A stretch of 64,000 bases of DNA from an uncultured Lachnospiraceae bacterium (lineage in GTDB: Bacteria; Bacillota; Clostridia; Lachnospirales; Lachnospiraceae), in the NCBI GenBank assembly GCA_947384285.1, contig CANDGI010000007.1, forward strand, positions 1-64,000, written 5' to 3'. Below are positions 9,730 to 59,530 of the stretch, one piece after another. The notes below the pieces were generated by a model. The model saw nothing but the letters and a program-made list of their open reading frames with translations, had not been told where the DNA came from and did no database searches. Every line of letters begins with the position of its first letter. Position 1 is the first letter of the stretch. Made by a program: the position numbers and the translations under genes.

Positions 9730-9830
9730 GCGAGGCTCATAAGTCCACACATCCGCTTCCAGCCCCGAACGCTTTTTGTTCTTTTCGCCTGGCACCTGTG
9801 AGCCGCATAAGCCCACACATGCTGCAGCAA
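9730..9830 (-). repeat. Degenerate direct repeat after the GH65 stop codon (period 68)
   Basis: Two diverged copies of about 35 bases contain AAGTCCACACAT (9741) and AAGCCCACACAT (9809), preceded by GGCTCAT and AGCCGCAT respectively. They lie between the GH65 stop codon and the EamA start, and account for the spurious N-terminal extension of the EamA frame. Confidence 0.6.
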
Positions 9831-9863
9831 ACGTTTCATGTCTGGATACGGATGGAAAGACAA

Positions 9864-20786: not shown

Positions 20787-20916
20787 GCAGGTGGACAGTT
20801 CTTTTTCCGTTGATTGCCGGTTTTATGATAGCAGGTGGACAGTTCTTTTCCGTTGATTGCCGGTTTTATTATAGCAGGTGGACAGTTCTTTTCTGTTGAT
20901 TGCCGGTTTTATTATA
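20787..20916 (-). repeat. Three tandem 43-44 bp copies directly after a GH65 stop codon
   Basis: Copies begin at 20787, 20831 and 20874 and are almost identical (one T-run length change and a few substitutions). The third abuts the stop codon of the GH65 gene at 20917. On the minus strand each unit contains a TATAAT-like hexamer (TATCAT in the copy at 20787). Just beyond the array (20759-20790) is a hairpin with about 13 paired bases but no T tract. The remaining gap to 20600 shows no gene. Confidence 0.9.
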
Positions 20917-23208
20917 TCATCCTTCTATCTCCAGCACTTTTTCCAGGGTATAGCTGCGTCCCTTTGCTTCCACCTGGATTGGCGTACTTGTCTCTGGTTC
21001 ACAGGCCAGAGTTATCTTTTTCTTTTCTATCAGAACATGCACCTGCACGCCCTTGATTATTATACGAAAATCCATAGATTTCCAGCGGTTTGGAAGATGG
21101 GGATTCAGGTATAATACACCGTTTTCGTAGCGGACGCCTGCAAATCCAAAAATCAAGCAGTTCCAAATACCGCCCAGAGATGCAGAGTGGACGCCGTCTG
21201 TACTGTCATGGGGATTTTCGTCCAAATCCACCACCAGGCATTTCTGAAAAAATTCCCAGGACAAATCCATTGCCCCGATGGCTGCACATGCCTGGGCATG
21301 GGCGCAATAGCTTAAGGAGGAGTCATGAATGGTTTTTCCTTCATAGAAAAGTACATTTTTCTTCACAATATCTTCCGCAAACAGATGTGGGAACAGGTTT
21401 AAAAGCATGACCACGTCTGCCTGCTTTAGAACCTGCATATTGACAATTTCTTCCCTGGAGTAATCAAGAAGCACCGCCTGCTTAATCTGGGATGTTTTGT
21501 ATTTGGCAATATTTTTCATGCAGGGCTTGGATAAAAATGTATCGTCCTGGGGAATAATGCCGTCGGCTCCCGGCGTGGCAAGATACATCTTTTCCACAAA
21601 TTCTTCCCATATGCCCAATTCTTTTTCTATGCCAAGCTTCCAGTCCAGGACGGAAAAAATATTCGGCTGTTTCTGCTTCAAGGTTTTTGCATAGTTAAGA
21701 GCTGTTTTTACGCAATAAACTGCCATATAGTTGGTATAGGCGTTGTTATCCACATGTTCTGTGTATTCATCTGGGCCGATGACATCAAAAATTCCATACT
21801 GATGGCGCGTTTCATCCCATTTTGCGCAGGAAACCCAGAACCTTGCCGCTTCAAAAACAATTTCATAGCCGCATTTTTCCATAAAGTCCCAGTCATTGGC
21901 TGCTTGGCGGTATTGTTCCACTGCGTAGGCAATGTCTGCTGTTACATGGTACTCCTTAATGCCGGACCAGACCTTGTTTGCTTTTCCAGTATGTATATTT
22001 AAGGCGGCATAGAGAGGAGTTTCCTCATCGCCGGTTTTGGCTGCTTCCCATGGGAACATTGCCCCTTGGAAGCCATAATCTTTCGCCTTTTTTCTTGCCC
22101 CATCCAATCCTAGGTAGCGGAATTCCAAAATACGTCTTGCTTCCTTGGGATAGAGGTATAACAACATTGGAAACAGGAATATTTCTGTGTCCCAGAACAC
22201 ATGGCCCTTGTATCCCTCGCCAGTCAAGCCCTTTGCCGCAATGCTGCATTCATTGGTGTGCCATGGCGTCATGCCTATCATATGGTATTGGGCAAAACAG
22301 ATTGCCGCTTCCTCCTCCTGGCTCATGCCTTCTACCCGGATGCGGGCGGTATCCCAAAAGCTTTCCATCCTTTTCTGGTGTTTTTCAAACAGGACTTCAT
22401 ATCCAGTTGCACATGCGGCATGTAATGCTTCTTTTCTTTTGTCTGCTGTTATGCCATTTTCCCCTTGGTTTACAAAGGTAATTTTTTCTAAAGCTGCCAG
22501 GCCATTGTCTGGCTTTAGGACGTATGTCCCATATATGCTTCGCCTTTTCAGGCTGAATTCCTTTTCCAAAAGAAGGCCCGCTGCTAATTTGCATTTCACA
22601 GCTTCTATGACTGTGCCTTCTTCCAATTCACTTCGGATTTCCATTACCTCTTTTTCATACACTCTTGCAACGGATTTGTGGAAATGTGATACGCCGCTGT
22701 TGGTAACCTGTCCATTGATGCCTGTCTTAATTTTCAGTTCTCTTATATTGCCGGCAAGGATATGTATCTTCAACGCCTGGACAAAAAGGTTTTTCTGCTC
22801 CATAGAGGCAAATCTTCTGTTTTCAACGGCGATTTTTCTGTTCCCGGAAAGTTCAAATACGTATCGGATCACCAGTTCTCCGCTGAAAAGATCAAGCTTC
22901 CGTTCAAAGGATGTAAGGCTTGCCCGTTCGGGGAGGATTTTTTCACCGTCTGCTTCCAGCTGGAACCAGGTGATATCCGGGCAGTTGACAAGCTCCGTTA
23001 CCTCATCCTCATATGCCTTATGGAATGCACCGCAAAGAAACATTCCTCTTTGTTCTTCAATCAAGGAAAATGGATGTGCCGCCCGCACGCCCAGATATCC
23101 ATTGCACTGGGCAAACACAGATTCTGTCTTCTGTTCGTACTCTGGCAGAAATTCTTTTTCACAAAGCCATAGCTTTCCGGTTTCTTTTTCTGTCTGATAA
23201 TGAATCAT
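20917..23208 (-). CDS. GH65 phosphorylase, YcjT-like (kojibiose phosphorylase candidate)
   Basis: A 763-residue inverting glycoside phosphorylase with catalytic acid E481 in GPDEYTEHVDNN. It lacks the 17-residue repeats of the other GH65 protein in the window. Its position, right after the Gfo/Idh oxidoreductase and in a cluster with two other keto-sugar enzymes, matches ycjT of E. coli, which was shown to be a kojibiose phosphorylase. It would yield beta-glucose 1-phosphate, so it needs a beta-phosphoglucomutase; the only one in the window is at 8.1 kb. Substrate assignment rests on gene order, since GH65 linkage specificity is not obvious from sequence alone. Confidence 0.9.
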   Translation of the reverse strand: MIHYQTEKETGKLWLCEKEFLPEYEQKTESVFAQCNGYLGVRAAHPFSLIEEQRGMFLCGAFHKAYEDEVTELVNCPDITWFQLEADGEKILPERASLTSFERKLDLFSGELVIRYVFELSGNRKIAVENRRFASMEQKNLFVQALKIHILAGNIRELKIKTGINGQVTNSGVSHFHKSVARVYEKEVMEIRSELEEGTVIEAVKCKLAAGLLLEKEFSLKRRSIYGTYVLKPDNGLAALEKITFVNQGENGITADKRKEALHAACATGYEVLFEKHQKRMESFWDTARIRVEGMSQEEEAAICFAQYHMIGMTPWHTNECSIAAKGLTGEGYKGHVFWDTEIFLFPMLLYLYPKEARRILEFRYLGLDGARKKAKDYGFQGAMFPWEAAKTGDEETPLYAALNIHTGKANKVWSGIKEYHVTADIAYAVEQYRQAANDWDFMEKCGYEIVFEAARFWVSCAKWDETRHQYGIFDVIGPDEYTEHVDNNAYTNYMAVYCVKTALNYAKTLKQKQPNIFSVLDWKLGIEKELGIWEEFVEKMYLATPGADGIIPQDDTFLSKPCMKNIAKYKTSQIKQAVLLDYSREEIVNMQVLKQADVVMLLNLFPHLFAEDIVKKNVLFYEGKTIHDSSLSYCAHAQACAAIGAMDLSWEFFQKCLVVDLDENPHDSTDGVHSASLGGIWNCLIFGFAGVRYENGVLYLNPHLPNRWKSMDFRIIIKGVQVHVLIEKKKITLACEPETSTPIQVEAKGRSYTLEKVLEIEG

Positions 23209-25080: not shown

Positions 25081-25099
25081 AGCTGCTGCCTCCTGGGAA

Positions 25100-25205
25100 A
25101 ATCCGCACCCACTTTGGTGCTCTTTTCCAAATACTGATTGATATATGTCCAAATATTGACTTCATATATGTTCTAAGAAAAATCTACGCCCATTTTGATG
25201 CTTTC
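25100..25205 (-). repeat. Degenerate direct repeat across the stop codon of the dehydrogenase gene (period 81)
   Basis: The last codons of the dehydrogenase (encoding SIKMGVDFS and the stop) are echoed 81 bases further on by a segment encoding HQSGCGFSQ in the leader of the next gene. Between them, a 21-base element reading ACATATAT and ending ATATTTGG also occurs twice. Confidence 0.55.
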
Positions 25206-26228
25206 TTCCGGGTGCTGGTCTACATATCTGCAGAAGCCTTCGGCACACTCTGCGAAGGGAACCACCGGGTCAATCAAGTCCTCGCAGTCTAGGTATCCGT
25301 TCATCAAAAGCTCCCAGCATACATCTTCAATCCGCTTTCTGTTCCAGCGGGGATATTCCGGGTTCGGTTCGCTGCATGCCCTGGAAAAAATAATTTTCCC
25401 ATAATTAAAATGTGCTTCCTGTCCAAGCCAGAGCCCCTCGGGAAATGGTTTTGCAAATGCCACATAGGCAATGGTTCCATTGTATGCAAGGCCTTTCAGT
25501 GCGGATTGGAGTGCATGTACGTTGCCGCTTGTCTCGATAATCACGTCTGCGCCCTGCTTATCTGTTAGGCGTTTTATCTCAAGCCCCGCGTCACAGGACA
25601 GGGAATCTAAGGCATAGTGCGCGCCGGTTTTCATGGCAATTTCACGTCTCTTTGCAATGGGGTCAATGCCAATCACGGCAGATGCGCCGATTTTTGCCGC
25701 TATCTGCAGGGCAATCAATCCGATAGCTCCAAGGCCGATGATGACTACACGGTCTCCAGGCCTTACATTGGCATCGCGGATTCCGCTCAATGCAAATTGG
25801 GCCGGGTCATAGCACACTGCATTTTTTGCAGAGGCAGCTTTGCTCATCTTGCGAAGCTTATAGTTGTCTACGGCATTGACAATCTGCGTTTCCTTGATGG
25901 GTCCGTAGGAGCAGACCCTGTCTCCGATTTCGTATTCCGTAACATCCGCTCCCTTTTCTGTAATTGTTCCTACAAACATATTGCCCAGAGGAAGGTCACC
26001 GAATTCGATTCCTCTTGGCTCATCTTCATCCCGCTTTGCAAAGATACGCCATTCCTCGTCAAATTTTCCATCAATAAAAGGCGTCGTACCCCTGAAATCG
26101 GCCAGCTCGGTTCCATGCTTGGGCGCTGCGAATTCCACTTTTATTTTTACCTCGCTGCTGGTAATCTCCCTGTCCTCATATTCCTTCAGTTCCGCAGTCC
26201 TGGGAGCTGTTGCTACTAATTTTTTCAT
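25173..26228 (-). CDS. Zinc-type medium-chain dehydrogenase, YcjQ-like
   Basis: A 351-residue medium-chain dehydrogenase/reductase. The NAD-binding motif GLGAIGLIALQIA is near residues 166-178, and the N-terminal catalytic domain has the KHGTELADFRG stretch where relatives place catalytic residues. In E. coli YcjQ oxidises D-gulosides at C3. With YcjR and YcjS it completes a guloside-to-glucoside route through two keto intermediates. The ribosome binding site AAGGAAGG precedes the ATG. The gap to the permease gene contains a partial 50-bp duplication. Confidence 0.92.
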   Translation of the reverse strand: MKKLVATAPRTAELKEYEDREITSSEVKIKVEFAAPKHGTELADFRGTTPFIDGKFDEEWRIFAKRDEDEPRGIEFGDLPLGNMFVGTITEKGADVTEYEIGDRVCSYGPIKETQIVNAVDNYKLRKMSKAASAKNAVCYDPAQFALSGIRDANVRPGDRVVIIGLGAIGLIALQIAAKIGASAVIGIDPIAKRREIAMKTGAHYALDSLSCDAGLEIKRLTDKQGADVIIETSGNVHALQSALKGLAYNGTIAYVAFAKPFPEGLWLGQEAHFNYGKIIFSRACSEPNPEYPRWNRKRIEDVCWELLMNGYLDCEDLIDPVVPFAECAEGFCRYVDQHPEESIKMGVDFS

Positions 26229-26255: not shown

Positions 26256-26325
26256 CTTAATCTTTTACGCTGCCTGCAGGCGCATGGCGCGGCTGGACAT
26301 GCGGCCTTAGCCTTTTACGCCTCCC
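26256..26325 (-). repeat. Partial 50-bp duplication around the permease stop codon
   Basis: CTTAATCTTTTACGC at 26256 and CTTAGCCTTTTACGC at 26306 are near-identical copies 50 bases apart. The second contains the stop codon of the permease gene and the first lies outside it. The flanks are only partly conserved. Confidence 0.55.
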
Positions 26326-35511: not shown

Positions 35512-37422
35512 ATGAAGAAAAATTTTTTCGGAAAGAAGCCCAGGTTACGGAAGGAAGGTTTTTTCGGAAAGAAGCCCAGGTTACAGGAGGAAGATTTTTT
35601 CGGGAACAAGCCAAGCTTACAGGAGGATTTTTTCGGGAACAAGCCCAGGTTACAGGAAGAAGATTTTTTCGGAAAGAAGCCCAGGTTACGGAAGGATAAT
35701 CTGAAAAGCAGGATGCTGCTGGCCTTACTGGGGGCGTTGTTGTGCCTGCAGATAGGATGCGGCGCTAAGGGTGGAAGCCAGCAGGAATTTTCCAGTTACC
35801 TGAACCGGATTTTTCAGTCTGAGATTACGGCAAGCACTTTGAATATGCACTACAGCCTGGCTCATCCGGAAAATTATGGAATTTCAAATTATAAGGTTAC
35901 ATATGGAAATGTTTCTGTGGACCGGGGAGCCGAGACAGCGGCCGTTCTGGAAAACTGGAAACAGAGCCTGAAAAAATTTAAGAAAAAAAATCTGTCGGTT
36001 TCCCAGCAGATGGCCTATGATATCATGATGGATTACATTGACAGGGAAATTCCGGCGGGAAAATTCCGTTTGCACCAGGAAATTTTAAGGCCTTCCACAG
36101 GCTTCCAGTCCCAGCTTCCGGTATTGCTGGCAGAATATACGTTTTATGATGAAAAAGACGTGGAGGATTATCTAAAGCTTTTGTCCTGTACGCCGGATGT
36201 CTTTGGGCAGATTATGGAATTGGAGCAAAAAAAAGCTGGGAAAGGCTTGTTTATGGCGGATTTTGCAGTCGATGACATCCTTGCCCAATGCAGTAATTTT
36301 ACCCAGAACCCGGAAAGCAATTATCTCTTGTCTACCTTTGATGCCAGGGTGGACGAGGCAGGTTTCCTCACGCCAGAACAGGCAGAGCAGTATAAAGCCA
36401 GCAACCGCCAGATTGTGACGGGCCAGGTGATACCAGCCTATCAAAAACTGGCTCAGGATTTGTCGGCTTTAAAAGGCTCCGGGAAAAATTCCGGCGGCCT
36501 GTGCGGATTGCCAGGAGGCAGGGAATACTATGAGTATCTGGTAAAGGATACCACAGGATCCGGTTTGTCCGTGGAAGAAATGCAGGATCAGACAGAGGCT
36601 CAGAGAAAACAGGATTTAGAGGATCTGGCCAAAATAGTAAAAAGCCAGCCGGATATTGGGTCAAAATCCATAAACTACCAGCTTCCTACCGAGGAACCGG
36701 AGCTGATTTTAAAGGATTTGCAGGTGAAAATGCAGCAGGATTTCCCGGCACCGCCACAGGTATCGTTTACGGTGAAGGAGGTGCATCCTTCCCTGGAGGA
36801 ATACACGGCGCCTGCCTTTTACCTGACTCCTCCCATAGATGACATCTCCCAAAATTCCATTTATATCAACAAGTCAAAGGGTGATGAAAAAATGCAGCTT
36901 TACACTACCCTTGCCCATGAAGGCTTTCCAGGGCATTTGTATCAGAATGTGATGGAGAGAAGCTGCGGCCTTGCGCCCATCCGCAGCCTATTTGGCAGCA
37001 GCGGCTATGCAGAAGGGTGGGCAACCTATGTGGAGATGCAGTCTTACTATTATGCAGACGTAGACCAGGATGTATGCGCTTTTCTGCAAAAAAACCAGTC
37101 TGCGCTTTTGAGCCTTTATGCCAGCGCAGATATGGGAATTCATTATGATGGATGGACCTTGCGGGATACGGTGGATTTCTTTGCAGCATATCAGATTACC
37201 AATAAGCAGGTCATCCAGGATATCTATCAGTTGATTGTGGAGGAGCCGGCCCACTATTTGAAATATTATATTGGTTATCTGGAGTTCTTGAATTTAAAGG
37301 AATATGCCATAGATAAGTTTCAGGGGGAGTATAGTGATTATAAATTCCACAGCGCATTGATGAAGATGGGGAATGCGCCATTTTACATATTGAAAAAGTA
37401 TTTGGCAGAGTATTGGGGATAG
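35512..37422 (+). CDS. DUF885 family putative metallopeptidase lipoprotein with a repetitive N-terminus
   Basis: A 636-residue protein. Its C-terminal two thirds match the DUF885 family: HEGFPGH (about residues 468-474) is a zinc-peptidase-like motif, and AEGWATYVE (about 502-510) supplies the usual third-ligand Glu. A hydrophobic segment ending in QIGC at about residue 83 looks like a lipoprotein signal, so the enzyme probably sits outside the membrane. Before it come about 60 residues made of five repeats of a 12-residue unit around FFGKKPRLQEE. That is very unusual in front of a signal peptide. The ATG at 35512 has only a weak ribosome binding site (GGGAAG), and an ATG at codon 68 would start just before the hydrophobic segment. 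The true start is unresolved. Confidence 0.85.
   Translation: MKKNFFGKKPRLRKEGFFGKKPRLQEEDFFGNKPSLQEDFFGNKPRLQEEDFFGKKPRLRKDNLKSRMLLALLGALLCLQIGCGAKGGSQQEFSSYLNRIFQSEITASTLNMHYSLAHPENYGISNYKVTYGNVSVDRGAETAAVLENWKQSLKKFKKKNLSVSQQMAYDIMMDYIDREIPAGKFRLHQEILRPSTGFQSQLPVLLAEYTFYDEKDVEDYLKLLSCTPDVFGQIMELEQKKAGKGLFMADFAVDDILAQCSNFTQNPESNYLLSTFDARVDEAGFLTPEQAEQYKASNRQIVTGQVIPAYQKLAQDLSALKGSGKNSGGLCGLPGGREYYEYLVKDTTGSGLSVEEMQDQTEAQRKQDLEDLAKIVKSQPDIGSKSINYQLPTEEPELILKDLQVKMQQDFPAPPQVSFTVKEVHPSLEEYTAPAFYLTPPIDDISQNSIYINKSKGDEKMQLYTTLAHEGFPGHLYQNVMERSCGLAPIRSLFGSSGYAEGWATYVEMQSYYYADVDQDVCAFLQKNQSALLSLYASADMGIHYDGWTLRDTVDFFAAYQITNKQVIQDIYQLIVEEPAHYLKYYIGYLEFLNLKEYAIDKFQGEYSDYKFHSALMKMGNAPFYILKKYLAEYWG
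35515..35700 (+). repeat. Five tandem copies of about 36 bp at the front of the DUF885 gene
   Basis: Units of 33-39 bases share the core TTTTTTCGG, then AAGCC, then AGGTTAC. They stay in frame and encode FFG(K/N)KP(R/S)LQEE-like repeats. Several units include ACAGGAGGA, a near-perfect ribosome binding site, so the array could also act as a leader element. Confidence 0.9.
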
Positions 37423-41944: not shown

Positions 41945-42152
41945 TCTGCTTATATTAAATAGAAAGAACTCGCTGCAGCGGCCAGCGCGCATTGGAAAAA
42001 TTTTGTCCACGTCTGCTTGTATCAAAATAGAAAGAACTCGTTGCAGCGGCCAGTGCGCATTGGAAAAATTTTGTCCACGTCTGCTTGTATCAAAATAGAA
42101 AGAACTCGCTGCAGCGGCTGGCACGCATTGGAAAAATTTTGTCCAAATCTGC
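41945..42152 (-). repeat. Three tandem 67-68 bp copies directly after the kinase stop codon
   Basis: Copies begin near 41945, 42012 and 42080. They share GAAAGAACTCG, the palindrome CGCTGCAGCG (degenerate in one copy) and ATTGGAAAAATTTTGTCCA. The first residues after the TAG of the kinase gene on the minus strand already belong to the array. The rest of 41824-42151 shows nothing else. Confidence 0.9.
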
Positions 42153-42739
42153 TACAGATTGGCACGAATGTAGGAAATAATTTTCCGGGTGCAGAAATCC
42201 AGATTGTCATTGGAAAAGGTTTCGGTAATTTCCGCCCGTTTCAAATTTTCTTCGGAAAAATCTAAATCGTCCGCAAGGAACCTGCGGCAGATTTCCAGAT
42301 ATTTCGGCTGGGATTGTATGCGTTCCCGGTTTAGCGCCCGCTGCAGGCGTTCCCCGTCGTCTACTTCCACATAGATGGGAACCAGGAAGTCTTTGCCGAA
42401 ATATTCCTGCAGCTTTACGTAGGATTCCAGTGTGCCTATAATCAGGTAATGGTTTTTTTCCAAATCAAGCTGATGGTCGTTGACGGTAAAATATTTCCAG
42501 ATGCCATGAAGCGTGTGGTAGGCGCGCAGTTCAATGATTTTCCCTTTGCGTTCTAACTCCTGTTCCTCTTCCTCTGTCAAAAAATAATATTCCACGCCGT
42601 CTCTCTCTTCCTTCCGGGGAGGGCGGGTGGTGTAAGGGATTAATGTTTTCAGGGAAAGAGATGGGTCTAAGAGTATCCGTTTGTATAAGGTATCTTTCCC
42701 GCATGAGCTTTTTCCCATTAAGCAGAATATTTTTCCCAT
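42152..42739 (-). CDS. Guanylate-kinase-like P-loop kinase
   Basis: A 195-residue nucleoside-monophosphate-kinase-like protein. The P-loop reads GKSSCGKDT (about residues 9-17) instead of the usual guanylate kinase GPSGAGKST. The YTTRPPRKEERDGVEYYFL block is clearly from the guanylate kinase family. The start at 42739 has AAAAGGAA 6 bases upstream. In Bacillus the equivalent position next to yaaR and holB holds thymidylate kinase, so this is a replacement or paralogue. Whether it still phosphorylates GMP is uncertain because of the altered P-loop. Confidence 0.85.
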   Translation of the reverse strand: MGKIFCLMGKSSCGKDTLYKRILLDPSLSLKTLIPYTTRPPRKEERDGVEYYFLTEEEEQELERKGKIIELRAYHTLHGIWKYFTVNDHQLDLEKNHYLIIGTLESYVKLQEYFGKDFLVPIYVEVDDGERLQRALNRERIQSQPKYLEICRRFLADDLDFSEENLKRAEITETFSNDNLDFCTRKIISYIRANL

Positions 42740-44655: not shown

Positions 44656-44919
44656 GCAGTTGTGCAAAGGCATATTTTTATTTTAACATAGATATGCTGG
44701 TTTGGGTAAAAATTTTGGTTTTGTTTTACCAGCTTTTCCAAACACCGGCATCTATATCCTCATTTGTCCATTTGCATTCGCAAACAGGGCAGAATCTTTA
44801 TCCTGTTCCCCCATACTATCAATCTTAAAGCGGGGCCTTATAAGCCAGCACAGTTTGTCAACTATGATTTTTTAAAGTACAATTTACGAATGCCTTGATG
44901 GCAATGCTGCAGCTCCATA
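44656..44919. other. Intergenic stretch without a confident gene
   Basis: No intact gene is seen. On the minus strand a 22-codon stretch (44726-44794) encodes a C-P-V-C-x-C motif followed by a short polar tail and a stop, and could be a zinc-ribbon remnant. A weak stem of GGTAAAA with TTTTACC lies around 44706-44730. Confidence 0.3.
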
Positions 44920-44948
44920 TTGAATTTGAAGCCATACCGTAGTAAAAT
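44920..44948 (+). promoter_or_regulatory. Promoter of the chemoreceptor gene
   Basis: -35 TTGAAT (44920-44925) and -10 TAAAAT (44943-44948) are separated by 17 bases. This fits the main sigma factor rather than the flagellar sigma-28 consensus usual for chemotaxis genes. Confidence 0.55.
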
Positions 44949-45002
44949 AGCAACTAGTGAGTATTCGTATATACGATAGAAAAACATCAGGAGGAATAAA
45001 AG

Positions 45003-46961
45003 GTGAAGGGAAAAAGAAGCATTAGTGGAAGGATATTGTTAAATACACTGATTATGATGAGTTGTATCGCAGCGGCATTTGTTGTGCTGATGACCCGTTC
45101 CATGAAATCTTTGACAGACAGCGTGTTGGCGAATGTGCTTCCTTCTATGACAAAAACAGCATCTCAGAATCTGGAAGGAAATATACATATGCTGGCAGAC
45201 CGGATTTTCATGATTGGGGACAATGCGGCAATCATGGATCCAGGCAGCAGCCAGGAAGAAAAAGAGACAGTGCTTAAGAATGCTCAGGCCGGGATTGAAT
45301 TTGTATGGCTTGGCCTGTATGATGCAGAGGGAAATTTGTTTTTGGACGGTGGCGGCTGTCCGGAGACTTTGCAGGATAGAAGAATATTTTCTGTTATGCA
45401 GGAGACTCAGAATCTGGTGATAGACGATATTTTTGAACATGATGAAGTGCTGGAGCTTGCGTTAGGGCGTCCTATTTTGAATGCAGAGGGTGAACTGAAT
45501 TATTATCTGGTGGGAAGCTATAATTACGATATGCTGAGTGATGTGTTAAGCAGCATTAATATCAGCGGCAATGGGGAAGCTTTTATTGTCAATGCCGATG
45601 GGCAGGTGATGGGGCACAGAAATACAGAGCTGGTGCGGGAAAGCATAGACATGGCAGGGTATCTGGGAGCAGAAGAGATAGAAAATAAGGTAGTGTCTGG
45701 AGAAACAGGGGTCATGGCTTATGAGGATGGGACAGACATAAAATGGGTCAGCTATGTTCCCATCAATGGCACAAACTGGTATTTGGCGATTATTGTTCCA
45801 AGAAATGATTTTATGGGGCCGGCCAATGACAGCATTCGGCTGGGAATTTATATTACGATTGTCCTTTTGTTTGTGGCAGGATTTTTTACGATAAGATATG
45901 CAGCAAAAATTAAACGTTCTCTGCAAGGGGTGACAAACAGGATAGAGCTTCTGGCGGACGGCGACTTGAAATCACCTACGGAAGTCAGCAGGACAAAAGA
46001 TGAAACACAGGCGCTTTCCACGTCTTTGAATCATACGGTAAACAGTATTAATGGATATATCTCTGAGCTTTCCAAGATTTTGTCCAGTATTTCAGAGGGC
46101 GATTTCCATGTATCTGTGGAAGGCGATTTCCAGGGGGATTTTGTTGTTATGAAAGAATCCTTGAACAATATTATTGTTTCCCTGAATAAAATGCTGGCTT
46201 CGGTACAGGATTCCTCCAAAGAGGTGCTTAAAACGGCGGGAATTGTATCAGAAGGCGCAGAACAGGTGCATACCGGTTCCAGTGAACAGTCCAGCTCTCT
46301 GCAGGTCCTGTCAGAGGAGACCAGGGCAATCGAAGAAAATATTTTGGAGGTGGATGAGAATACAAGGCTTGCCAGTGAATTGATGGAAAAAACCAGGCTT
46401 AGCATGGATATCGGGGATGAAAACATGAAAAACCTGTTAAGAGCCATGGAGGATATCAACCAAAATTCATTGGAAATTACCAAGATAAATAAGATATTGG
46501 AGGATATTGCTTCCCAGACCAATATGCTGGCGTTAAATGCTTCTGTGGAAGCCAGCAGGGCGGGAGAATTTGGAAAAGGATTTGCTGTGGTGGCATCAGA
46601 GGTGAGAAGCCTTGCAGCCCAAAGTACAGAATCAGCCAAACAGGCGTCAGAGGTGATAAGCAGTTCTTTAAAGGCCATTCAAAACGGCGTGGTTTATGCA
46701 AAGCAGGCGGCAGAATCCTTTGGAGATATCAGTGATGTGTCAAACAGGATGTCGGATATTACAAGAAGGCTGGAACAATCGGTAAATGTCCAGAAGGAGT
46801 CTTTGGAAAATATGGCAGAGCAGATTTCCCAGATCAGCCATGTGGCACAGCAGAACCTGGATGCCAGCTATGAAAGTGCCACTGCCAGCCAGAAGCTTCA
46901 CAAACAGGCAGAAGGCTTGCAGTATATTTCCGGGCAGTTCCGGTTAAGGAGGGACAGGTAA
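45003..46961 (+). CDS. Methyl-accepting chemotaxis protein
   Basis: A 652-residue membrane chemoreceptor. A signal-anchor helix (about 10-30) is followed by an extracellular dCache-type sensor (about 35-275), a second helix (about 277-300), HAMP region(s) and a long cytoplasmic coiled coil. The signalling tip DIASQTNMLALNASVEASRAGE is near residues 500-521. It starts at GTG with AGGAGG upstream. The next gene, an FMN-binding lipoprotein, starts one base after its stop, so the two form a unit. The ligand is unknown. No other chemotaxis gene lies in the window. Confidence 0.93.
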   Translation: MKGKRSISGRILLNTLIMMSCIAAAFVVLMTRSMKSLTDSVLANVLPSMTKTASQNLEGNIHMLADRIFMIGDNAAIMDPGSSQEEKETVLKNAQAGIEFVWLGLYDAEGNLFLDGGGCPETLQDRRIFSVMQETQNLVIDDIFEHDEVLELALGRPILNAEGELNYYLVGSYNYDMLSDVLSSINISGNGEAFIVNADGQVMGHRNTELVRESIDMAGYLGAEEIENKVVSGETGVMAYEDGTDIKWVSYVPINGTNWYLAIIVPRNDFMGPANDSIRLGIYITIVLLFVAGFFTIRYAAKIKRSLQGVTNRIELLADGDLKSPTEVSRTKDETQALSTSLNHTVNSINGYISELSKILSSISEGDFHVSVEGDFQGDFVVMKESLNNIIVSLNKMLASVQDSSKEVLKTAGIVSEGAEQVHTGSSEQSSSLQVLSEETRAIEENILEVDENTRLASELMEKTRLSMDIGDENMKNLLRAMEDINQNSLEITKINKILEDIASQTNMLALNASVEASRAGEFGKGFAVVASEVRSLAAQSTESAKQASEVISSSLKAIQNGVVYAKQAAESFGDISDVSNRMSDITRRLEQSVNVQKESLENMAEQISQISHVAQQNLDASYESATASQKLHKQAEGLQYISGQFRLRRDR

Positions 46962-46962
46962 T

Positions 46963-47430
46963 ATGAAAGAGAAAAGAAATTTTTTTATAGTCATCTGCCT
47001 GCTGGCATGTATTTTGGTTTCTGGCTGTGGAAGCAAGAAGGCAAAGGATCAGTGGCAGGATGGGTATTATACTGCAATGATGGAGGAATATAGTTTTGGC
47101 TGGAGAGAATATGTCACAATCTGCGTGATGGATAGTAAGATTGCCAGCGTGGAGTACAATGCAAAAAATGCCAGCGGTTTTGTAAAGTCCTGGGACAATG
47201 TTTATATGGGAAATATGAATTCTGTTAATGGGACGTATCCAAATCGGTATACCAGGTTCTATGCGGCGCAGCTCTTGGAGGAACAGAGTGCAGATAATAT
47301 TGATATGTTAGCGGGAGCAAGTTCCTCTGGCGGTAATTTCCGCAGGCTGGCGGCAGCAGTGCTGGAATGTGCCGAGAGAGGGGATACAGAGATTGCACTG
47401 GTTCCGGTGGAGAAGGATGCAGGGGAATAG
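46963..47430 (+). CDS. FMN-binding domain lipoprotein
   Basis: A 155-residue lipoprotein. The signal ends VSGC with the acylated Cys near position 22, and the rest is a single FMN-binding domain. The motif DMLAGASSS (about residues 119-127) corresponds to the flavinylation motif of the family, normally ending in Thr; here Ser replaces it. The family can carry covalently attached FMN and moves electrons outside the membrane. AAGGAGG in the end of the chemoreceptor gene serves its start. Pairing with a chemoreceptor suggests a redox or flavin-linked sensing role (inference). Confidence 0.82.
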   Translation: MKEKRNFFIVICLLACILVSGCGSKKAKDQWQDGYYTAMMEEYSFGWREYVTICVMDSKIASVEYNAKNASGFVKSWDNVYMGNMNSVNGTYPNRYTRFYAAQLLEEQSADNIDMLAGASSSGGNFRRLAAAVLECAERGDTEIALVPVEKDAGE

Positions 47431-47529
47431 AGGAAACTGCGCTGGTTCCGGTGGAGAAGGATGCAGGGGAATAGAGGAAACTGCGCTGGTTCCGGTGGAG
47501 AAGGATGCGGGGGGATAGAGGAAAGTGCG
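47391..47529 (+). repeat. Three tandem 44-bp copies spanning the stop codon of the FMN-binding gene
   Basis: The core GGTTCCGGTGGAGAAGGATG recurs with a period of exactly 44 bases: the GTTCC step falls at 47401, 47445 and 47489. The first copy contains the last codons and stop of the gene. Because 44 is not a multiple of three, the later copies are out of frame and untranslated. The remainder to 47780 shows no convincing gene. Confidence 0.92.
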
Positions 47530-47780
47530 GGGGATATAAAAAAGGGGTTGTTACAGAATAAGAAATGTTTATGATGTTAAGCTTACTGCATAAAAGGAAC
47601 AAGGAAGGCCAAGGTCTGCATAAGCTTTTATAATAGTTTTCTGCGTTTGTTTTCTCTTTTGCAAACTGCATAATGGCATAGCCGCGTTTTGGAGCATAAA
47701 GGGAAAGCAAAATAAAAAATGTTGCTTCTGTGAGAGCACCGTTTTTTGATTATCTCTCAAATCGCTCATCTCCAATCAGC

Positions 47781-47823
47781 TTTCGCGCAATGGATGGATC
47801 ATTCATTGCGCGAAAATTTTTTT
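47781..47823 (+). terminator. Strong intrinsic terminator before the sigma factor gene
   Basis: TTTCGCGCAATG (47781-47792) and CATTGCGCGAAA (47804-47815) form a perfect 12-base stem, followed by A and seven T residues. It shows that the frame open upstream of the sigma factor start is not coding. Confidence 0.9.
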
Positions 47824-47874
47824 GGCACATTCCGGGGGCTTGAAACGTTAAACATTTTGAAAGGGGGTTTTTGT

Positions 47875-48351
47875 GTGTCCTTAGATCTCAGTGAACAGTA
47901 CGATAAAATATACCGCTACTGCTATTTTAAAGTGAACAGCCGTTGTCTGGCAGAAGATTTGACACAGGAAACCTTCCTGCGGTATTTTGCCCAGAATTCT
48001 TATGTGAACCATGGAAAGCAGTTGGCATATCTCTATACTATTGCCCGGAATCTGTGCATTGATTATTACCGGAAACCCCAGAGGACAGTGGCAGAAGAGG
48101 ATTTTTCCCAGAGCGGACAGCAGAAAAATGTTGATAAATTGTCAGAAAACCCCATGGAACATGTGGAAACATCCTTGCATCTACAGATGGCTGTGGATAA
48201 GCTTCCCGTAGAAATGCAGGAATTAATTCTGCTTCGGTATGTGAATGAGCTTTCCGTCCGGGAAATCTGCAAAATAACCGGATTATCCAGAAGCAGCCAG
48301 TACCGGTTGGAAAAAGAGGCGTTGAGACGCCTGAAAAAACTGCTGATGTAA
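47875..48351 (+). CDS. ECF-type RNA polymerase sigma factor
   Basis: A 158-residue sigma-70 family protein with region 2 (YCYFKVNSRCLAEDLTQETFLRYF, in two parts over about residues 17-40) and region 4 (PVEMQELILLRYVNELSVREICKITGLS, in two parts over about 110-140). The GTG at 47875 follows AAAGGGGG; the frame upstream crosses a terminator and is excluded. A membrane protein and an ABC exporter follow on the same strand, so the sigma factor probably controls them. No classical anti-sigma gene is evident. Confidence 0.9.
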   Translation: MSLDLSEQYDKIYRYCYFKVNSRCLAEDLTQETFLRYFAQNSYVNHGKQLAYLYTIARNLCIDYYRKPQRTVAEEDFSQSGQQKNVDKLSENPMEHVETSLHLQMAVDKLPVEMQELILLRYVNELSVREICKITGLSRSSQYRLEKEALRRLKKLLM

Positions 48352-48470
48352 ATGCAAAGCTTTTGAAAATCAGGAATGTGGAATTGCCGCTATGGATGCA
48401 AGGCTTTTTGAAAATCAGGAATGTGGAATTGCCGCTATGGATGCGAAGCTTTTGAAAGCCAGAAATGTGG
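48352..48470 (+). repeat. Tandem 44-45 bp repeat after the sigma factor gene
   Basis: Copies start at 48352, 48396 and 48441 with the shared sequence ATGCAAAGCTTTTGAAAAT and a GGAATGTGGAATTGCCGCTATGG half. The third is partial. The array begins directly after the sigma factor TAA and ends before the ribosome binding site of the next gene. Confidence 0.9.
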
Positions 48471-48494
48471 ATAAATTTCTCAGGAGGGAAGAAA

Positions 48495-49235
48495 ATGTTT
48501 AAAATTACAGAATCACACATAAAAAGGGAAATGAAACAGTTATATCCAGCGCCGGATCCTAAGAGAAAAGAAAAGTTTTTGCGGGAATTGCCTTACCCAA
48601 AGGCCAGCTTTGCCGAGATGGCAGCGGTTCAGATTGGTTATATTCATAAATGGGTATGGGCATTGTCGCTGCTGCTTGCCACCGGAGCGCTGGCGATGGG
48701 GGAATATCTGGCGCCGGGCAGAAATTATGGCAGTCTTTGGTGCATGTCCGGGGCAATGCCCCTTTTAGCAGTGTTGGCAGTGACAGAGACATTTCGTTCC
48801 AGTGCTTACGGCATGGCGGAGCTGGAGATGGCCTCGAAGCACAGCCTGCCCCAAATCCTCCTGATACGGATGGGGGTTATAGGAAGCGTGGATTTTTTTC
48901 TGGCGGCGGCTGGGATACTGTTTATTGTCCGGCAGGGAACCATGGGGATGCTCCGGGCGGCGGTTTATTTGATGGTGCCTTGGCTGTGCACCTGTGTGCT
49001 GGCTTTTCAAATTGAAAAGCATGCCAAAGGCGGGGACACGGTATGGTATTGCACCGCCTGCGGATGCTTCCTGTGTATGGGATGTGTGATAAGCGGACAG
49101 AGCGGAGGAATAATTTATGATAGATCAAAATTTTATCTTTGGCTGGTTGTGTTTTTCGCGCTGTCAATTTGCTTTGCCAGGCAGATTTGGCATATCCGGC
49201 ATGGGGCAGAGGAATGGAATTTGTATTTGACGTAG
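48495..49235 (+). CDS. Hypothetical membrane protein of the sigma factor/ABC unit
   Basis: A 246-residue protein with a cytoplasmic N-terminus of about 45 residues and six hydrophobic segments. I do not recognise a family. The ATG at 48495 has AGGAGG upstream; the frame start at 48465 has none. Placed between an ECF sigma factor and an ABC transporter, it could be an atypical membrane anti-sigma factor holding the sigma factor by its N-terminal tail, or an extra transporter subunit. Both are guesses from position. Confidence 0.78.
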   Translation: MFKITESHIKREMKQLYPAPDPKRKEKFLRELPYPKASFAEMAAVQIGYIHKWVWALSLLLATGALAMGEYLAPGRNYGSLWCMSGAMPLLAVLAVTETFRSSAYGMAELEMASKHSLPQILLIRMGVIGSVDFFLAAAGILFIVRQGTMGMLRAAVYLMVPWLCTCVLAFQIEKHAKGGDTVWYCTACGCFLCMGCVISGQSGGIIYDRSKFYLWLVVFFALSICFARQIWHIRHGAEEWNLYLT

Positions 49236-49298
49236 CAGGGGTATAGAATTGAAATCTGGCATAACTGGAGAATAGAATTTGTATTTGATATAGCAGGG
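49217..49298 (+). repeat. Duplicated segment spanning the stop codon of the membrane protein gene
   Basis: GAATTTGTATTTGA, then TAGCAGGGG, occurs at 49217 and again at 49275 (period 58). The first copy contains the TAG stop of the gene at 48495-49235. Confidence 0.7.
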
Positions 49299-49314
49299 GA
49301 ATGGAGGAATGGAA

Positions 49315-50193
49315 ATGGAATTGATTTTTGACCGGGTAACCAAACAATATAAAAATAAGATTGCAGTGGATCGGGTGTCATTTTCCTTGAAAAAAGGCGT
49401 TTACGGGCTTCTTGGGGCAAATGGGGCAGGGAAAACCACATTGATGCGGATGATGTGCGGGGTGTTAAAGCCGGACAGCGGAGAAATTTTTTATGATAAT
49501 ATTAAAGTGGAAGAGGAAGCATACCGGGATATTCTGGGGTATCTGCCCCAGGAATTTGGGTATTATCCTGATTTTACAGCTATGGATTTTTTGATGTATC
49601 TGGCGTCCCTGAAAGGGATTCCCAAAAAGCTGGCAAGGGAAAAGGCAGTAAAATTATTGGAGCTGGCAGAACTTTCCCATGTGGCAAAAAAGAAAATTAA
49701 GACTTTTTCCGGCGGAATGAAACAGCGGCTTGGCATTGCCCAGTCCCTTCTGAATGATCCGAAAGTCCTTGTGTTGGACGAGCCTACTGCCGGATTGGAT
49801 CCGAAAGAGAGGGTAAAGTTCCGCAATTTGATTTCCAAGCTTGGAAATGACCGGATTGTGCTGCTTTCCACCCACATCGTATCGGATGTGGAGCATATTG
49901 CAGACGTAATCCTGGTTATGAAGGATGGCAGCATTATCCGCAAGGGAAGTTTGGGAGAGATTATAAAGGTCATTGATGGGAAAGTGTGGGAATGTACGGT
50001 GGATGGCCGGGCGGCAGAAAAGCTTATGGAAAAATACCTGCCTTTAAATATCCGGCAGGAACAAGACGGCACGTTTCTTCGCCTGGTATGTGAAGAAAAA
50101 CCAGCAGAGCCGGCAGTAAACATGGACGCAACCCTGGAGGATTTATATCTCTACTATTTCAGCGGAGCAGAGCAGGAGGGAAGAGAGGTATGA
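49315..50193 (+). CDS. ABC transporter ATP-binding protein
   Basis: A 292-residue ATPase with Walker A GANGAGKTT (about 33-41), signature FSGGMKQRL and Walker B VLVLDEPTAGLD. A C-terminal extension of about 80 residues is typical of CcmA/BcrA-type exporter ATPases. Two ATG codons are possible; the one at 49315 has GGAGG 7 bases away. It pairs with the permease that follows and with the preceding membrane protein. The substrate is unknown. Confidence 0.93.
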   Translation: MELIFDRVTKQYKNKIAVDRVSFSLKKGVYGLLGANGAGKTTLMRMMCGVLKPDSGEIFYDNIKVEEEAYRDILGYLPQEFGYYPDFTAMDFLMYLASLKGIPKKLAREKAVKLLELAELSHVAKKKIKTFSGGMKQRLGIAQSLLNDPKVLVLDEPTAGLDPKERVKFRNLISKLGNDRIVLLSTHIVSDVEHIADVILVMKDGSIIRKGSLGEIIKVIDGKVWECTVDGRAAEKLMEKYLPLNIRQEQDGTFLRLVCEEKPAEPAVNMDATLEDLYLYYFSGAEQEGREV

Positions 50194-50250
50194 GAAGCCG
50201 TATGGGGGCTTTGCATATTTTAGAATGCAGCATTGGGAGGAAAGAACGGT

Positions 50251-51492
50251 ATGAGAGAAGTATTTACGTTGGCAGGATATGAGTATCAGAAAATTTTTAA
50301 AAGGCGTTCTACATGGATTGCATTGTTTCTTGTGCTTTTGTGGACGTTGTTTTCCGTTTTTGGCGTTGTTTTCGGGGATTTTTATATGGAAGGGGAGAAG
50401 GTGGCCAGCCATTACCAGATGGCACAGATGGAGAGGGAGGCCTTGGAGCATTTGGAAATCAAGGAATTAAACCAGAAGTTTTTCCAGAAGCAGAAGGAGG
50501 ATTTGAAGGCATTTTCGAAGGAATACCGTGGACTGCTTTTCGGAGAAAAAGCACCAGGGCGCAGAGCCGAAGGGTGGAAGAAATATTATGAATACTATGC
50601 GCCTTATGATAATCTTGGCACGCTGCTGGCTATGATGGACAATCAGATTGGGGGCATCGAAATGGAAGAGGCGGGCGAAAAGGATTTCTATCAGTACAGA
50701 GATATTATGCTGGAAAAAGTTTTTGAGGGGGAAAAGCTTTCTGATGGGGAAATAGACTTTCACAGAAAGGAAAATGAGAAAATAAAAACGCCCTATGCCT
50801 ATGGAAATATGATAGGATATGACAATGTTTTCCGCATGATAACGCCCAATTGTATATTTCTTGCTTTTGCTGCAGCTATTATTCTTGCACCTATGTTTGC
50901 AGGGGAATATACGTCCAATATGGATGCTTTGGTATTGTCTTCCCGGTTTGGAAAAAATAGGCTGATTATTGCAAAGCTTTTGACAGGAATTTCCTTTGGA
51001 CTGTTTTCCTCCCTATGTTTTCTTGGCATTTTTTTGCTGGAGATTCAGACAATTTATGGGCTGAGCGGATGGAACCTGCCGGTGCAGGTGTGCGTTTCAG
51101 GGATTTATCTGACGCTTCCCATTACTTTGCTGGAGCTATTGGGAATTGCCGTTGGCTGCTGTACCATAGCAATTTGTATGACGGCTGTGGCTGTCATGTT
51201 TTGTTCTGCCAGAATGAAGTCGCCTTTTGGTGTGGTTATTGTAAGCTTTGCGTTTATTTCTGCTCCAATTTTTTTGGTTTCTATGGTGGCGGATTATCGC
51301 ATTCTGTTTATGATTGTCAACAGCCTTCCTACATCCATGATGTATCCTGCTGGGGCAGCGTCACATCAGCTTGTATCCGTTGGGAACCATTATTTCTATT
51401 TTTTCCAATGGGTTCCAGTGGTATATTTATGCCTGATGACGGGGCTTTCCTGGTGGAGTTACCGCATATTTCGAAATCATCAGGCCAGGTGA
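50251..51492 (+). CDS. ABC transporter permease (ABC-2-like)
   Basis: A 413-residue membrane protein. One helix at about residues 20-45 precedes a large extracytoplasmic or amphipathic domain (to about 190), followed by five more helices, as in the ABC-2 family. The start at 50251 has GGGAGG upstream. It forms an exporter with the ATPase before it. The large loop region may bind substrate. Possible roles are antimicrobial resistance or lipid/peptide export under the nearby sigma factor (inference). Confidence 0.88.
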   Translation: MREVFTLAGYEYQKIFKRRSTWIALFLVLLWTLFSVFGVVFGDFYMEGEKVASHYQMAQMEREALEHLEIKELNQKFFQKQKEDLKAFSKEYRGLLFGEKAPGRRAEGWKKYYEYYAPYDNLGTLLAMMDNQIGGIEMEEAGEKDFYQYRDIMLEKVFEGEKLSDGEIDFHRKENEKIKTPYAYGNMIGYDNVFRMITPNCIFLAFAAAIILAPMFAGEYTSNMDALVLSSRFGKNRLIIAKLLTGISFGLFSSLCFLGIFLLEIQTIYGLSGWNLPVQVCVSGIYLTLPITLLELLGIAVGCCTIAICMTAVAVMFCSARMKSPFGVVIVSFAFISAPIFLVSMVADYRILFMIVNSLPTSMMYPAGAASHQLVSVGNHYFYFFQWVPVVYLCLMTGLSWWSYRIFRNHQAR

Positions 51493-52139: not shown

Positions 52140-52213
<74 letters not shown>

Positions 52214-52287: not shown

Positions 52288-52612
52288 TTATTTTTCCACG
52301 CCCACAATAACCAATCTGCTGTCTGTGGCATGTCCGTTACAGGTAGAACGCATGACGAAGGATTCCCCTATGCAAGTTCACAGCCAGTATCATAAAGGCT
52401 GTTTTTCTCAATAAAGCCCGCATATTTTTGGAACTCCTGCTCATCATAATTGCAGAAATTATAGCAGCAGAAATTATAGCAGCAGAATTCCTGGTTCTCG
52501 GATATGTCCGTTATGAATACCGCGGCAGCCCGGTATGTGGATTTTTCATAGATGGTATCAAATTCAAAATAATGAAATGCCTCCCTCTTTGCTCCGGCGG
52601 CAAATCATCATA
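52288..52612 (-). pseudogene. Class B sortase remnant
   Basis: On the minus strand the frame reads AFHYFEFDTIYEKSTYRAAAVF, then FQKYAGFIEKNSLYDTG (broken here into parts), which resembles the second half of class B sortases. A stop codon follows CELA; after a frameshift the sequence continues FVMRSTCNGHATDSRLVIVGVEK and stops at 52288. STC with the later Arg are the catalytic residues of sortases. The N-terminal half is missing. A 15-base repeat (about 52455-52490) inserts FCCYN twice. It is dead by at least one frameshift. Confidence 0.62.
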
Positions 52613-52729
52613 AGGCATTCCAAATAATGCTTCGCACCAGCCTTTCTCCTTAATGAAAGAGAATCCTGCTGTATTTCTTTCAAATCAAAGATTTTCAGGA
52701 TGGAGATGGGGTTATAATAAAATGTAATA

Positions 52730-57790: not shown

Positions 57791-59461
57791 ATGAAGAAGA
57801 AAAAAGTATGGAAAATTATAGTTTCCGCGGTAATCGTGATTGCAGTGATCGGCGCAGCGGCGCTAAACAATGCAAGGTCTGCTGGGGAAGCGGCAGGGGA
57901 GGCTATGAAGGTGGAAGCATTTACCGTGGAGACGGGGGATGTGTCAGAAACCATAGAAACCAATGGAACCGTGGTCAGCGGAGAGCAGAAGACCTTTTTT
58001 TCTCCGGTGAATGCCAAGGTGGAGACGGCAGATTTCCAAACCGGGGATATGGTGAAGGAAGGGCAGAAGTTAATCACCTTTGATTTAAAAGATTTGGAGG
58101 AGCAGAACCAGAAGGCGGAGCTTACGGTAAAGGCGAACCAGTTAGGCTATCAGGATTCTGTCAACAAATCAAATGAAGCGGCGGTAAAGCAAGCCCAGGC
58201 ACAGGCAGCCGCCTCTTCCCTCCAGAACCAGGTAGATGCAAAGAAGCAGGAAATTGCGGATTTGACAGCTGCCATTGCCGGGGAAGCCCAGGCACAGGCG
58301 GCTGCCCAGCAGCAGGAACAGGAGAAGATCAACGCCCAGGTTAGTGAACTGCAAAAGGAGTTAAAGAAGGCGGAAAAGGCGTTGGAAAAATCCAAGGCGG
58401 CATACGAGAAAGCAGCCGCCCAGCAGCAGGAATCACAGGTGAATTTTGATGCGGCGGCAGCTTCCGGGAATGAGGAAACATTGGAGGAAACACGGGAAGC
58501 CCTGAATGCCGCCAATGAAGCGCTGGCAGAAGCAAAAGGGGATTTCGAGGCAGAACAGGAAATCGTAAATGGCCTGAATGCCCAGATTACAGCATTGCAG
58601 CCAGGGGCGGCGGAGATTGCAGCCAGTGATGCAGGCGGCGGGGAATTACAGCAGAGATTAGAAGCAGCCCAGGCAGAGCTGGCAAATCTACAGGCAAACC
58701 TGGAAGCGCAGAAATCTATGGCGGAGGCTGACGCTGGAACCTTGAGCAGTGCGGCAAGGGCGCAGATGCAGACCAATAACAATCTTGCAGAGTTAGAGAG
58801 CAAATCCTTAGAGGAATTGATTTTGCAGGGCCAGCAGGGAATCTGTGCAGAGTTTAACGGGGTGATTTCTGATAATCAGGCACTGGAAGGGGCATCCGTA
58901 TCCCAGGGAATGCAGCTTTTTACCTTGCAAAGCATTGATAATGTCAATGTGGAAGTGACTTTGTCGAAAAATGTATATGATAAAGTAAAAGAGGGGCAGA
59001 AGGCAGAAATTACTTTTGCAGGCCAGACGTATCAGGGAACGGTTACAAGAATCAGCAGGATTGCCACAGGCGGCATGGCGGGTACCAACCAGGCGGCTGT
59101 AGCGGCGGCAGGAATCCAGGCTTCGGTACATTTAGATAACCCGGATGACAACATCTTTCTGGGCGTAGATGCCAAAGTAAAAATTCTGGCAGCAGAGGCA
59201 AGAGATGTGGTGATTCTTCCCATAGAGGCAGTGAATATCGGAAAAGACGGAACCTTCTGCTGGGTATGTGAGGATGGAGTTTTGGCAAAGCGAAGCATCA
59301 AGACGGGCGTAACCTCGGATGAGTGTGCAGAAATTACAGAAGGGATTGGGGCAGGGGAGCAGGTGATTGCAGATCCGGGCAGCCATGAGGAGGGTGACAG
59401 CATTACCATCCGGGAAGCTGGCGGCATAGAAGATGAACCTGAAAAAAGCAGTGAAGAATAG
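57791..59461 (+). CDS. HlyD/MacA-like efflux periplasmic adaptor subunit with a long coiled coil
   Basis: A 556-residue protein with one N-terminal membrane helix (about 6-25). The biotinyl-lipoyl-like half-motif (about 50-100) is followed by a long Ala/Gln/Glu-rich coiled coil (about 105-330), then the second lipoyl half, a beta barrel and a membrane-proximal domain (EAVNIGKDGTFCWV). The hairpin is longer than that of many adaptors. The ATG at 57791 has AGGAGG upstream; the 27 codons before it are not real. It would link the ABC permease to the thick wall of a Gram-positive cell. Confidence 0.9.
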   Translation: MKKKKVWKIIVSAVIVIAVIGAAALNNARSAGEAAGEAMKVEAFTVETGDVSETIETNGTVVSGEQKTFFSPVNAKVETADFQTGDMVKEGQKLITFDLKDLEEQNQKAELTVKANQLGYQDSVNKSNEAAVKQAQAQAAASSLQNQVDAKKQEIADLTAAIAGEAQAQAAAQQQEQEKINAQVSELQKELKKAEKALEKSKAAYEKAAAQQQESQVNFDAAAASGNEETLEETREALNAANEALAEAKGDFEAEQEIVNGLNAQITALQPGAAEIAASDAGGGELQQRLEAAQAELANLQANLEAQKSMAEADAGTLSSAARAQMQTNNNLAELESKSLEELILQGQQGICAEFNGVISDNQALEGASVSQGMQLFTLQSIDNVNVEVTLSKNVYDKVKEGQKAEITFAGQTYQGTVTRISRIATGGMAGTNQAAVAAAGIQASVHLDNPDDNIFLGVDAKVKILAAEARDVVILPIEAVNIGKDGTFCWVCEDGVLAKRSIKTGVTSDECAEITEGIGAGEQVIADPGSHEEGDSITIREAGGIEDEPEKSSEE

Positions 59462-59530
59462 GCGGCTGGGATAAGCCGAAGATATTCAGTTCCATGGTGT
59501 GGCAAGGCGGCTGAAAAAGCAGTGAAAATT
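59439..59530 (+). repeat. 71-bp duplication spanning the stop codon of the adaptor gene
   Basis: CTGAAAAAAGCAGTGAAGAAT at 59439 (given in part) recurs with few changes at 59511, followed in both by AGGC-GCC-rich sequence. The period is 71. The first copy contains the adaptor stop codon. Confidence 0.75.

Follow-up and report, generated by a model that had tools for sequence, protein, structure and literature searches.

Short tandem duplications at stop codons and elsewhere in the genome of a Petralouisia-like Lachnospiraceae bacterium

Why do short tandem repeats in this piece of DNA lie so often at the 3′ ends of genes? The first-pass annotation listed nine places where a unit of about 43-81 bp is repeated at, across or just beyond a stop codon, and it proposed a recurrent process that targets gene 3′ ends, with slippage at transcription termination as one possible cause. 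The stretch in question (hereafter the window) comprises bases 1-64,000 of contig C7 (107.5 kb) from an assembly of 3.23 Mb in 74 contigs with 83 % completeness. The source species is Petralouisia-like, and its GH65 gene has a close match in Petralouisia muris (80 % identity). We sampled the source genome in 40 stretches, which together with the window amount to 863,457 bases or 27 % of the genome, and 12 other genomes with 20-200 kb each, one genome per species. The genus set consisted of the source genome and 28 other genomes, and G015 was placed in the same genus as the source genome. Genes were called using our own dicodon caller and not taken from an annotation, resulting in 50 called genes in the window. 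Of the TRF rows we kept those with a period of at least 25 and a score of at least 100, and only the best one where rows overlapped. The places in the window were tested by offset scans and 400 dinucleotide shuffles each.

Arrays and eroded duplicates in the window

Five clear arrays recovered by TRF lie at stop codons or span them, and a sixth lies within a gene. Together with the weaker repeats they are as follows (edges are relative to the stop codon).

20787..20916, minus strand: 43-bp unit in 3.0 copies (TRF 96 % matches, score 237), beginning one base past the stop of gene 20917-23208 (minus; GH65 domains by Pfam); edge 0
41945..42153, minus strand: 68-bp unit in 3.1 copies (TRF 91 %, score 348) at the stop of the guanylate-kinase-like gene 42152-42754 (minus); edge -2 nt
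47394..47529, plus strand: 44-bp unit in 3.1 copies (TRF 95 %, score 244), the first copy containing the last codons and stop of gene 46963-47430 (plus); edge -37 nt
48352..48471, plus strand: 44-45-bp unit in 2.7 copies (TRF 45 x 2.7, 89 %, score 196), beginning one base past the stop of a sigma-70-like gene ending at 48351 (plus; Pfam Sigma70_r2/r4); edge 0
49206..49302, plus strand: old array, 29-bp unit in 3.3 copies (TRF 67 %, score 103), starting inside the final 30 nt of gene 48495-49235 (plus); edge -30
35514..35697, plus strand: in-frame array, 36-bp (12-codon) unit in 5.2 copies (TRF score 245; also 69 x 2.6, score 248; recovered by find_repeats as well), encoding the N-terminus of the product of gene 35512-37422 (plus; Pfam DUF885)
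9728..9820, no strand: eroded duplicate at offset 68 (25 nt at 84 %, above 400 shuffles), between the stop at 9864 (minus) and the start of the next gene
25098..25209, no strand: eroded duplicate at offset 81 (31 nt at 77 %, above 400 shuffles), lying in the gap and extending across the stop of gene 25173-26228 (minus)
59443..59546, plus strand: eroded duplicate at offset 71 (24 nt at 88 % and 33 nt at 79 %, above 400 shuffles), spanning the stop of gene 57791-59461 (plus)
26256..26325, no strand: claimed 50-bp repeat, unconvincing (15 nt at 87 %; shuffle P=0.02, uncorrected for 50 genes)

Eight of the nine places of the first-pass annotation exceeded all 400 shuffles, the one that did not being 26256-26325; five of them are clear TRF arrays, and those at 9730, 25100 and 59439 are short eroded matches. 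The position at stop codons holds for the five arrays, but 9730-9830 lies only loosely at one: a distance of 43 nt separates its end from the stop at 9864, and it extends to the called start (9740) of the following gene. The array of an 81-bp unit described at 25100-25205 was not recovered by TRF, which gives only a 22-nt double there (22 x 2.0, 25126-25171). The repeat at 49217-49298 is real, but its unit of 58 is twice the best-fitting period. The three loci noted for a 43-45-bp period do share it, but their units are unlike in sequence. The in-frame array in the DUF885 gene was absent from that annotation. Rfam gave two matches in the window, neither of them inside an array; a match to the GA-cis RNA (RF02987) is located at 52569-52653 (minus strand), near tRNA-Met at 52140-52213.

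Tandem duplications in genes and in gaps across the genome

Tandem duplications are dense and real in the source genome. The 863,457 sampled bases contained 89 arrays, 49 in genes and 40 wholly or partly outside them. Collapsing the arrays to one copy dropped two of the 89 as overlapping, leaving 34 outside and 53 inside genes (87 in total), as it also shifted some rows from outside genes to inside. The distance of repeats to stop codons, a check suggested with the first claim, gave a clear result: 24 of the 34 collapsed outside arrays are within 10 nt of a stop, compared with 7.9±2.4 at random and a maximum of 13 in 300 runs. A stop was covered by 16 collapsed arrays (6.6±2.3 at random) and a start by three (6.7±2.3 by chance), and nine were found within 10 nt of a start, which is at chance and not below it (8.1±2.4). 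Before collapsing, 31 of the 40 had an edge between -80 and +20 of a stop and 13 of the 40 of a start, and only three of these 13 were not also near a stop. Divergent gaps, with 22,240 of the 118,426 gap bases, held a single array of the 34. Array rates per kb were 0.340 outside genes and 0.066 inside (0.197 once tripled for frame).

The TRF periods of the 40 outside arrays range from 29 to 79, except for one array at 108 that by eye consists of shorter units. In the same 863 kb, a second detector gave 46 duplications that were not entirely within genes: 17 at periods of 25-44, five at 45-64, 15 at 65-74, five at 75-84 and none at 85-400. The periods outside genes thus have a sharp end near 80 bp and form two clusters (25-44 and 65-84) with few values between. 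A slight difference in period separates arrays inside genes from those outside (KS p=0.044).

Arrays inside genes keep the reading frame. The period was divisible by three in all 49 from the source genome and in 25 of 26 from the 12 other samples, the exception being a TRF period of 142 in G023; for the 40 arrays not wholly in genes, remainders of 0, 1 and 2 occurred 18, 9 and 13 times. Along the genes the distribution was even (KS p=0.75): counting by quarters from the 5′ end in 35 complete genes gave 14, 12, 12 and 9 arrays, two of the 49 being omitted as they lie in truncated genes. Four of these 47 are within 100 nt of the stop and seven within 100 nt of the start. In G042 the quarters held 3, 4, 2 and 1 (p=0.18). 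A dense cluster of in-frame arrays occupies a few neighbouring genes at about 69-73 kb of contig C2 (L010) in the source genome.

We compared gene ends and gene interiors using one tandem score on 220-nt pieces, with gene middles taken from genes longer than 500 nt. Among 676 stops, 673 starts and 560 gene middles, a score of at least 20 was reached at 42, 24 and 7, and a score of at least 13.5 at 61, 43 and 11, respectively. Of 325 stops without a start within 110 nt, 31 (9.5 %) carried the signal; the figure was 12 of 322 (3.7 %) for starts without a stop within 110 nt and 1.25 % for gene middles, or 3.75 % once tripled for frame. Stops are therefore about 2.5-fold above both starts and the frame-corrected interior, and starts equal that interior. 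The value of 3.75 % is a lower bound, since tripling assumes that every in-frame duplication survives; some in-frame insertions cannot, so the true birth rate in genes exceeds it, and selection may close the gap between stops and interiors. The excess on the stop side could be caused by selection or by a mutational preference.

A second test asked where arrays lie within their own gaps. It omits periods of the dispersed families, rows without two neighbours and divergent gaps, which left 30 of the 40 rows from the source genome and 8 of the 12 from G042 when nothing was barred; with a bar before starts there were fewer, since some gaps then had no allowed place. In the source genome 26 of 30 arrays touch the stop compared with 18.8 expected (P=0.0001). 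With 20, 50 and 80 nt before starts barred, the stop was touched by 24 of 28 arrays (18.1 expected, P=0.0011), 19 of 23 (15.0 expected, P=0.012) and 15 of 19 (12.3 expected, P=0.057), respectively. A strict bar before starts is not real, as 23 of the 40 arrays are within 80 nt of a start (13 of 40 within 20 nt). In G042 there was no stop excess within gaps: 6 of 8 arrays touch the stop against 5.2 to 7.3 expected, and with 80 nt barred 2 of 4 against 3.9.

Arrays in related genomes and dispersed families

Array counts in the sampled DNA of each genome were as follows.

Source genome, 863 kb: 49 inside genes, 40 outside
G042, 180 kb: 10 inside, 12 outside (nine with an edge between -80 and +20 of a stop)
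G022, 160 kb: 1 inside, 4 outside (two at stops)
G044, 160 kb: 2 inside, 3 outside (none at stops)
G014, 180 kb: 2 inside, 2 outside (none at stops)
G024, 160 kb: 3 inside, 1 outside (at a stop)
G003, 160 kb: 6 inside, 1 outside (not at a stop)
G023, 200 kb: 1 inside, 0 outside
G041, 160 kb: 1 inside, 0 outside
G037 (order-level outgroup), 160 kb: 0 inside, 0 outside
G006, 40 kb: 1 outside (at a stop)
G015, 20 kb: 1 outside (not at a stop)
G018, 20 kb: 0 outside

Among the nine relatives sampled with at least 160 kb, only G042 is as rich in arrays outside genes as the source genome, and in the first 40 kb of it to be sampled, array edges lie at -2, -2 and -9 relative to stops. With six coding arrays and one other, G003 indicates that the two densities are not always linked. 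At the junctions tested, G023 (C1; L130-L133, L176-L181) had the most similar DNA (87 and 83 %), yet its 200 kb hold no outside array, so the trait seems quick to change.

Gene pairs shared between genomes allowed a comparison of single junctions. None of the four arrays of the source genome at shared gene pairs was matched in G023 (23 shared), G014 (20) or G044 (21), and none of three in G024 (35 shared junctions). In G042 an array was present at two of the three junctions with arrays in the source genome (20 shared, Fisher P 0.046) and in G022 at one of six (19 shared, P 0.54). Between species, each represented by one genome, arrays thus come and go. The recurrence proposed in the first-pass annotation is borne out: copies range from near identical to eroded in the TRF alignments, and the arrays of the source genome are mostly missing at the gene pairs shared with relatives.

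Two relatives with the GH65 gene (L068 and L069) have no array in the 500 nt downstream of it, where their sequence differs. The gap at 41945 measures 328 nt in the source genome and 52-215 nt in ten relatives with both neighbours, and no array was found at this junction in the six relatives tested. At 47394, similar C-terminal codons are present once in G023 and G024, in line with a stop-spanning array that leaves the gene whole. The junction at 48352 has a 78-bp array in G042 and none in G023, G022, G024, G014 and G044. At 49206, arrays with other periods occur in G042 (33 x 4.5) and G022 (35 x 3.2) and none in G023, G014, G024 and G044; by eye, the units of the source genome and G022 both seem to include the last codons of the gene. 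These shared last codons and the differing periods (29, 33 and 35 in the source genome, G042 and G022) make separate origins likely.

We searched for further copies of the units of arrays outside genes in the sampled DNA. Of 52 units from the source genome and G042, 41 had no other match of at least 25 nt in the sampled DNA of the source genome, G042, G023 and G022, and all five clear outside-gene arrays of the window are among them. The other 11 match elsewhere. A dispersed family of about 78 bp, which includes five TRF arrays with periods of 77-79 bp and is often arranged head to tail (e.g. L039:19031-19213), has at least 51 copies in the source genome, at least 82 in G042 and at least 45 in G022 among the matches listed, and 0-11 in the 26 remaining genomes. 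Copies stand at the start of several contigs, so the family probably breaks assemblies. It is most numerous in the array-rich species, and the two may have a common cause. A second family of 72 bp (15 copies in the source genome, 17 in G014, 16 in G044 and 4 in G042) does not follow array density; its tandem copies form the very end of the contig at window positions 1-131.

Selection, mutational preference and the first duplication

The most economical account of these data is, in our view, a lineage-specific and genome-wide birth of minisatellites under selection (probability about 0.6). Stretches of about 25-80 bp would be duplicated in tandem all over the genome at an unusually high rate, and selection would decide which copies stay. 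Inside genes only in-frame copies would last, and near starts and promoters fewer duplications would do so, while those after or across a stop would accumulate. Extra copies behind a stop should be nearly harmless because the first copy still holds the complete gene, and as the copy inside the gene is held fixed, the array edge would fall at the stop. Further copies would be gained, lost and homogenised by slippage between existing ones. The arrays are spread over genes and gaps, pass a frame filter, are absent from shared junctions in several relatives and differ in density between species. The frame filter and the even spread along genes speak for a general process under selection, and we infer that the 3′ bias stems from selection and not from mutation. 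This account carries one assumption at the other end of the gene: a start-spanning duplication also leaves a whole gene, so avoidance of starts would require an effect on expression. The clustering at stops claimed by the first-pass annotation is thus real, but an aimed mechanism is not required by the data. If the account is true, we have a natural example of a plain mutational process which, together with selection, imitates a targeted one. The cause of short tandem duplication is searchable by genome comparison, given 40 outside arrays per 863 kb in the source genome, 12 per 180 kb in G042 and 0 per 200 kb in G023.

The arrays resemble known bacterial minisatellites or VNTRs in their head-to-tail units (about 25-80 bp here, within the usual 10-100 bp), commonly 2-5 copies, in their occurrence in gaps and in genes with the frame kept, and in being present or absent between species. 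They differ in the high density and strong lean towards 3′ ends in this lineage. In the matched texts of the open-licence papers listed, we found no description of this 3′-end pattern.

A mutational process that itself prefers gene 3′ ends, for example where termination, R-loops or ribosome release expose single strands, would also account for the clustering within 10 nt of stops, the higher signal at isolated stops than at isolated starts, the excess within gaps (P 0.0001 to 0.057) and the array edges in the window (0, 0 and -2) and in G042. It fits less well with coding arrays, which are spread evenly along genes without enrichment near stops, or with G042, which lacks the excess within gaps. 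In the array-poor species the few arrays lie mostly off stops (0 of 2 at stops in G014, 0 of 3 in G044, 0 of 1 in both G003 and G015, against 1 of 1 in both G024 and G006 and 2 of 4 in G022). Convergent gaps, which contain two 3′ ends each, show no excess, with two arrays in 51 gaps compared with 31 in 571 same-strand gaps, although these are small numbers. For termination slippage in particular, the gaps that hold the arrays at 48352 and 49206 are 143 and 79 nt long and separate same-strand genes, and scanning 41800-50300 for terminators gave 11 sites, one of them inside an array, where 9.6±3.4 were expected. Since the gaps are same-strand ones, the scan is near chance and convergent gaps have no excess, termination is not favoured as the cause. 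We consider a 3′-end preference rather unlikely; if true, it would represent a novel type of mutational hot spot. A more speculative and likewise rather unlikely version is a duplication process of narrow product size (periods outside genes in two clusters at about 29-48 and 64-79 bp) that exists in some lineages of the genus and fires more often at 3′ ends, perhaps on DNA that transcription and replication have left single-stranded, in which case each gene end would be a small nursery of new sequence.

Alternatively, the units could derive from mobile repeats of the REP, MITE or MIRU-like type that insert behind genes and are then amplified in tandem, and the 78-bp and 72-bp families show that dispersed repeats exist in this genome. 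As an explanation of the arrays in general we hold this to be improbable, given the 41 of 52 single-site units, and for the window arrays it is refuted within the sampled DNA (27 % of the genome): the dispersed copies typical of REP or MITE elements are found for the two families and for none of the five clear arrays. MIRUs are likewise short repeats between same-strand genes and sometimes tandem, but they form one family, whereas here most units are mutually unrelated and lie at stops. According to the matched text of PMC12548453, MIRUs appear to be mobile and to enter at start codons, where they carry an ORF coupled to the gene. MITE families carrying a minisatellite, as the matched text of PMC4596501 describes for Porphyromonas gingivalis, look similar to the 78-bp and 72-bp families, unlike the single-site units. 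A role downstream of the gene, be it in spacing, in mRNA stability or in translational coupling, would agree with the arrays in same-strand gaps and with the junction at 49206, where the source genome, G042 and G022 all have one, but the units fold like controls, the window arrays have no Rfam match and several relatives have no array at these junctions, so we regard it as highly improbable. That the arrays are an assembly artefact is scarcely credible despite the 74 contigs, the 83 % completeness and contigs that start with dispersed repeat copies, as most copies in the window differ by point changes, which assemblers do not invent, and arrays at low density are found also in G044 with five contigs and G024 with four.

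Regarding the first step of minisatellite birth, three arrays of unique sequence in the source genome (C4 29567, C5 43096 and C5 65124), all having 1.9-2.1 copies that match at 95 % or more, were informative about end homology, the copies of other arrays being partial or eroded. In all three the self-match is exactly one period long, and the first step therefore seems to need no homology at the ends. Our best guess is that the first duplication would arise by replication-linked joining with little need for homology, followed by slippage between the copies. Unprocessed flaps, as in rad27 yeast and in polA 5′-nuclease mutants, lead to short tandem duplications, and their size range and absent end homology would fit. 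However, the PolA 5′-nuclease domain is present in the source genome and its relatives, being detected in 28 of 29 genomes including G042, and in an alignment of 10 sequences this region is well conserved in the source genome.

Other candidates for the birth mechanism were also rejected. Ku, required for Ku-dependent end joining, was found in 0 of 29 genomes of the genus, with a positive control search in Bacillus subtilis. A defect of mismatch repair is not indicated, MutS_III being present in 28 of 29 genomes including the source genome and G042. The REP transposase (Y1_Tnp) had a match in 18 of 29 genomes; in the source genome only a weak fragment below the cut-off was recovered, so no link to the arrays is seen. 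Hairpin-driven slippage was dismissed on folding, as the 44 units with periods other than 77-79 had a mean z of -0.18 compared with -0.03 for 60 controls. The eight units of 77-79 bp had a mean z of -1.46.
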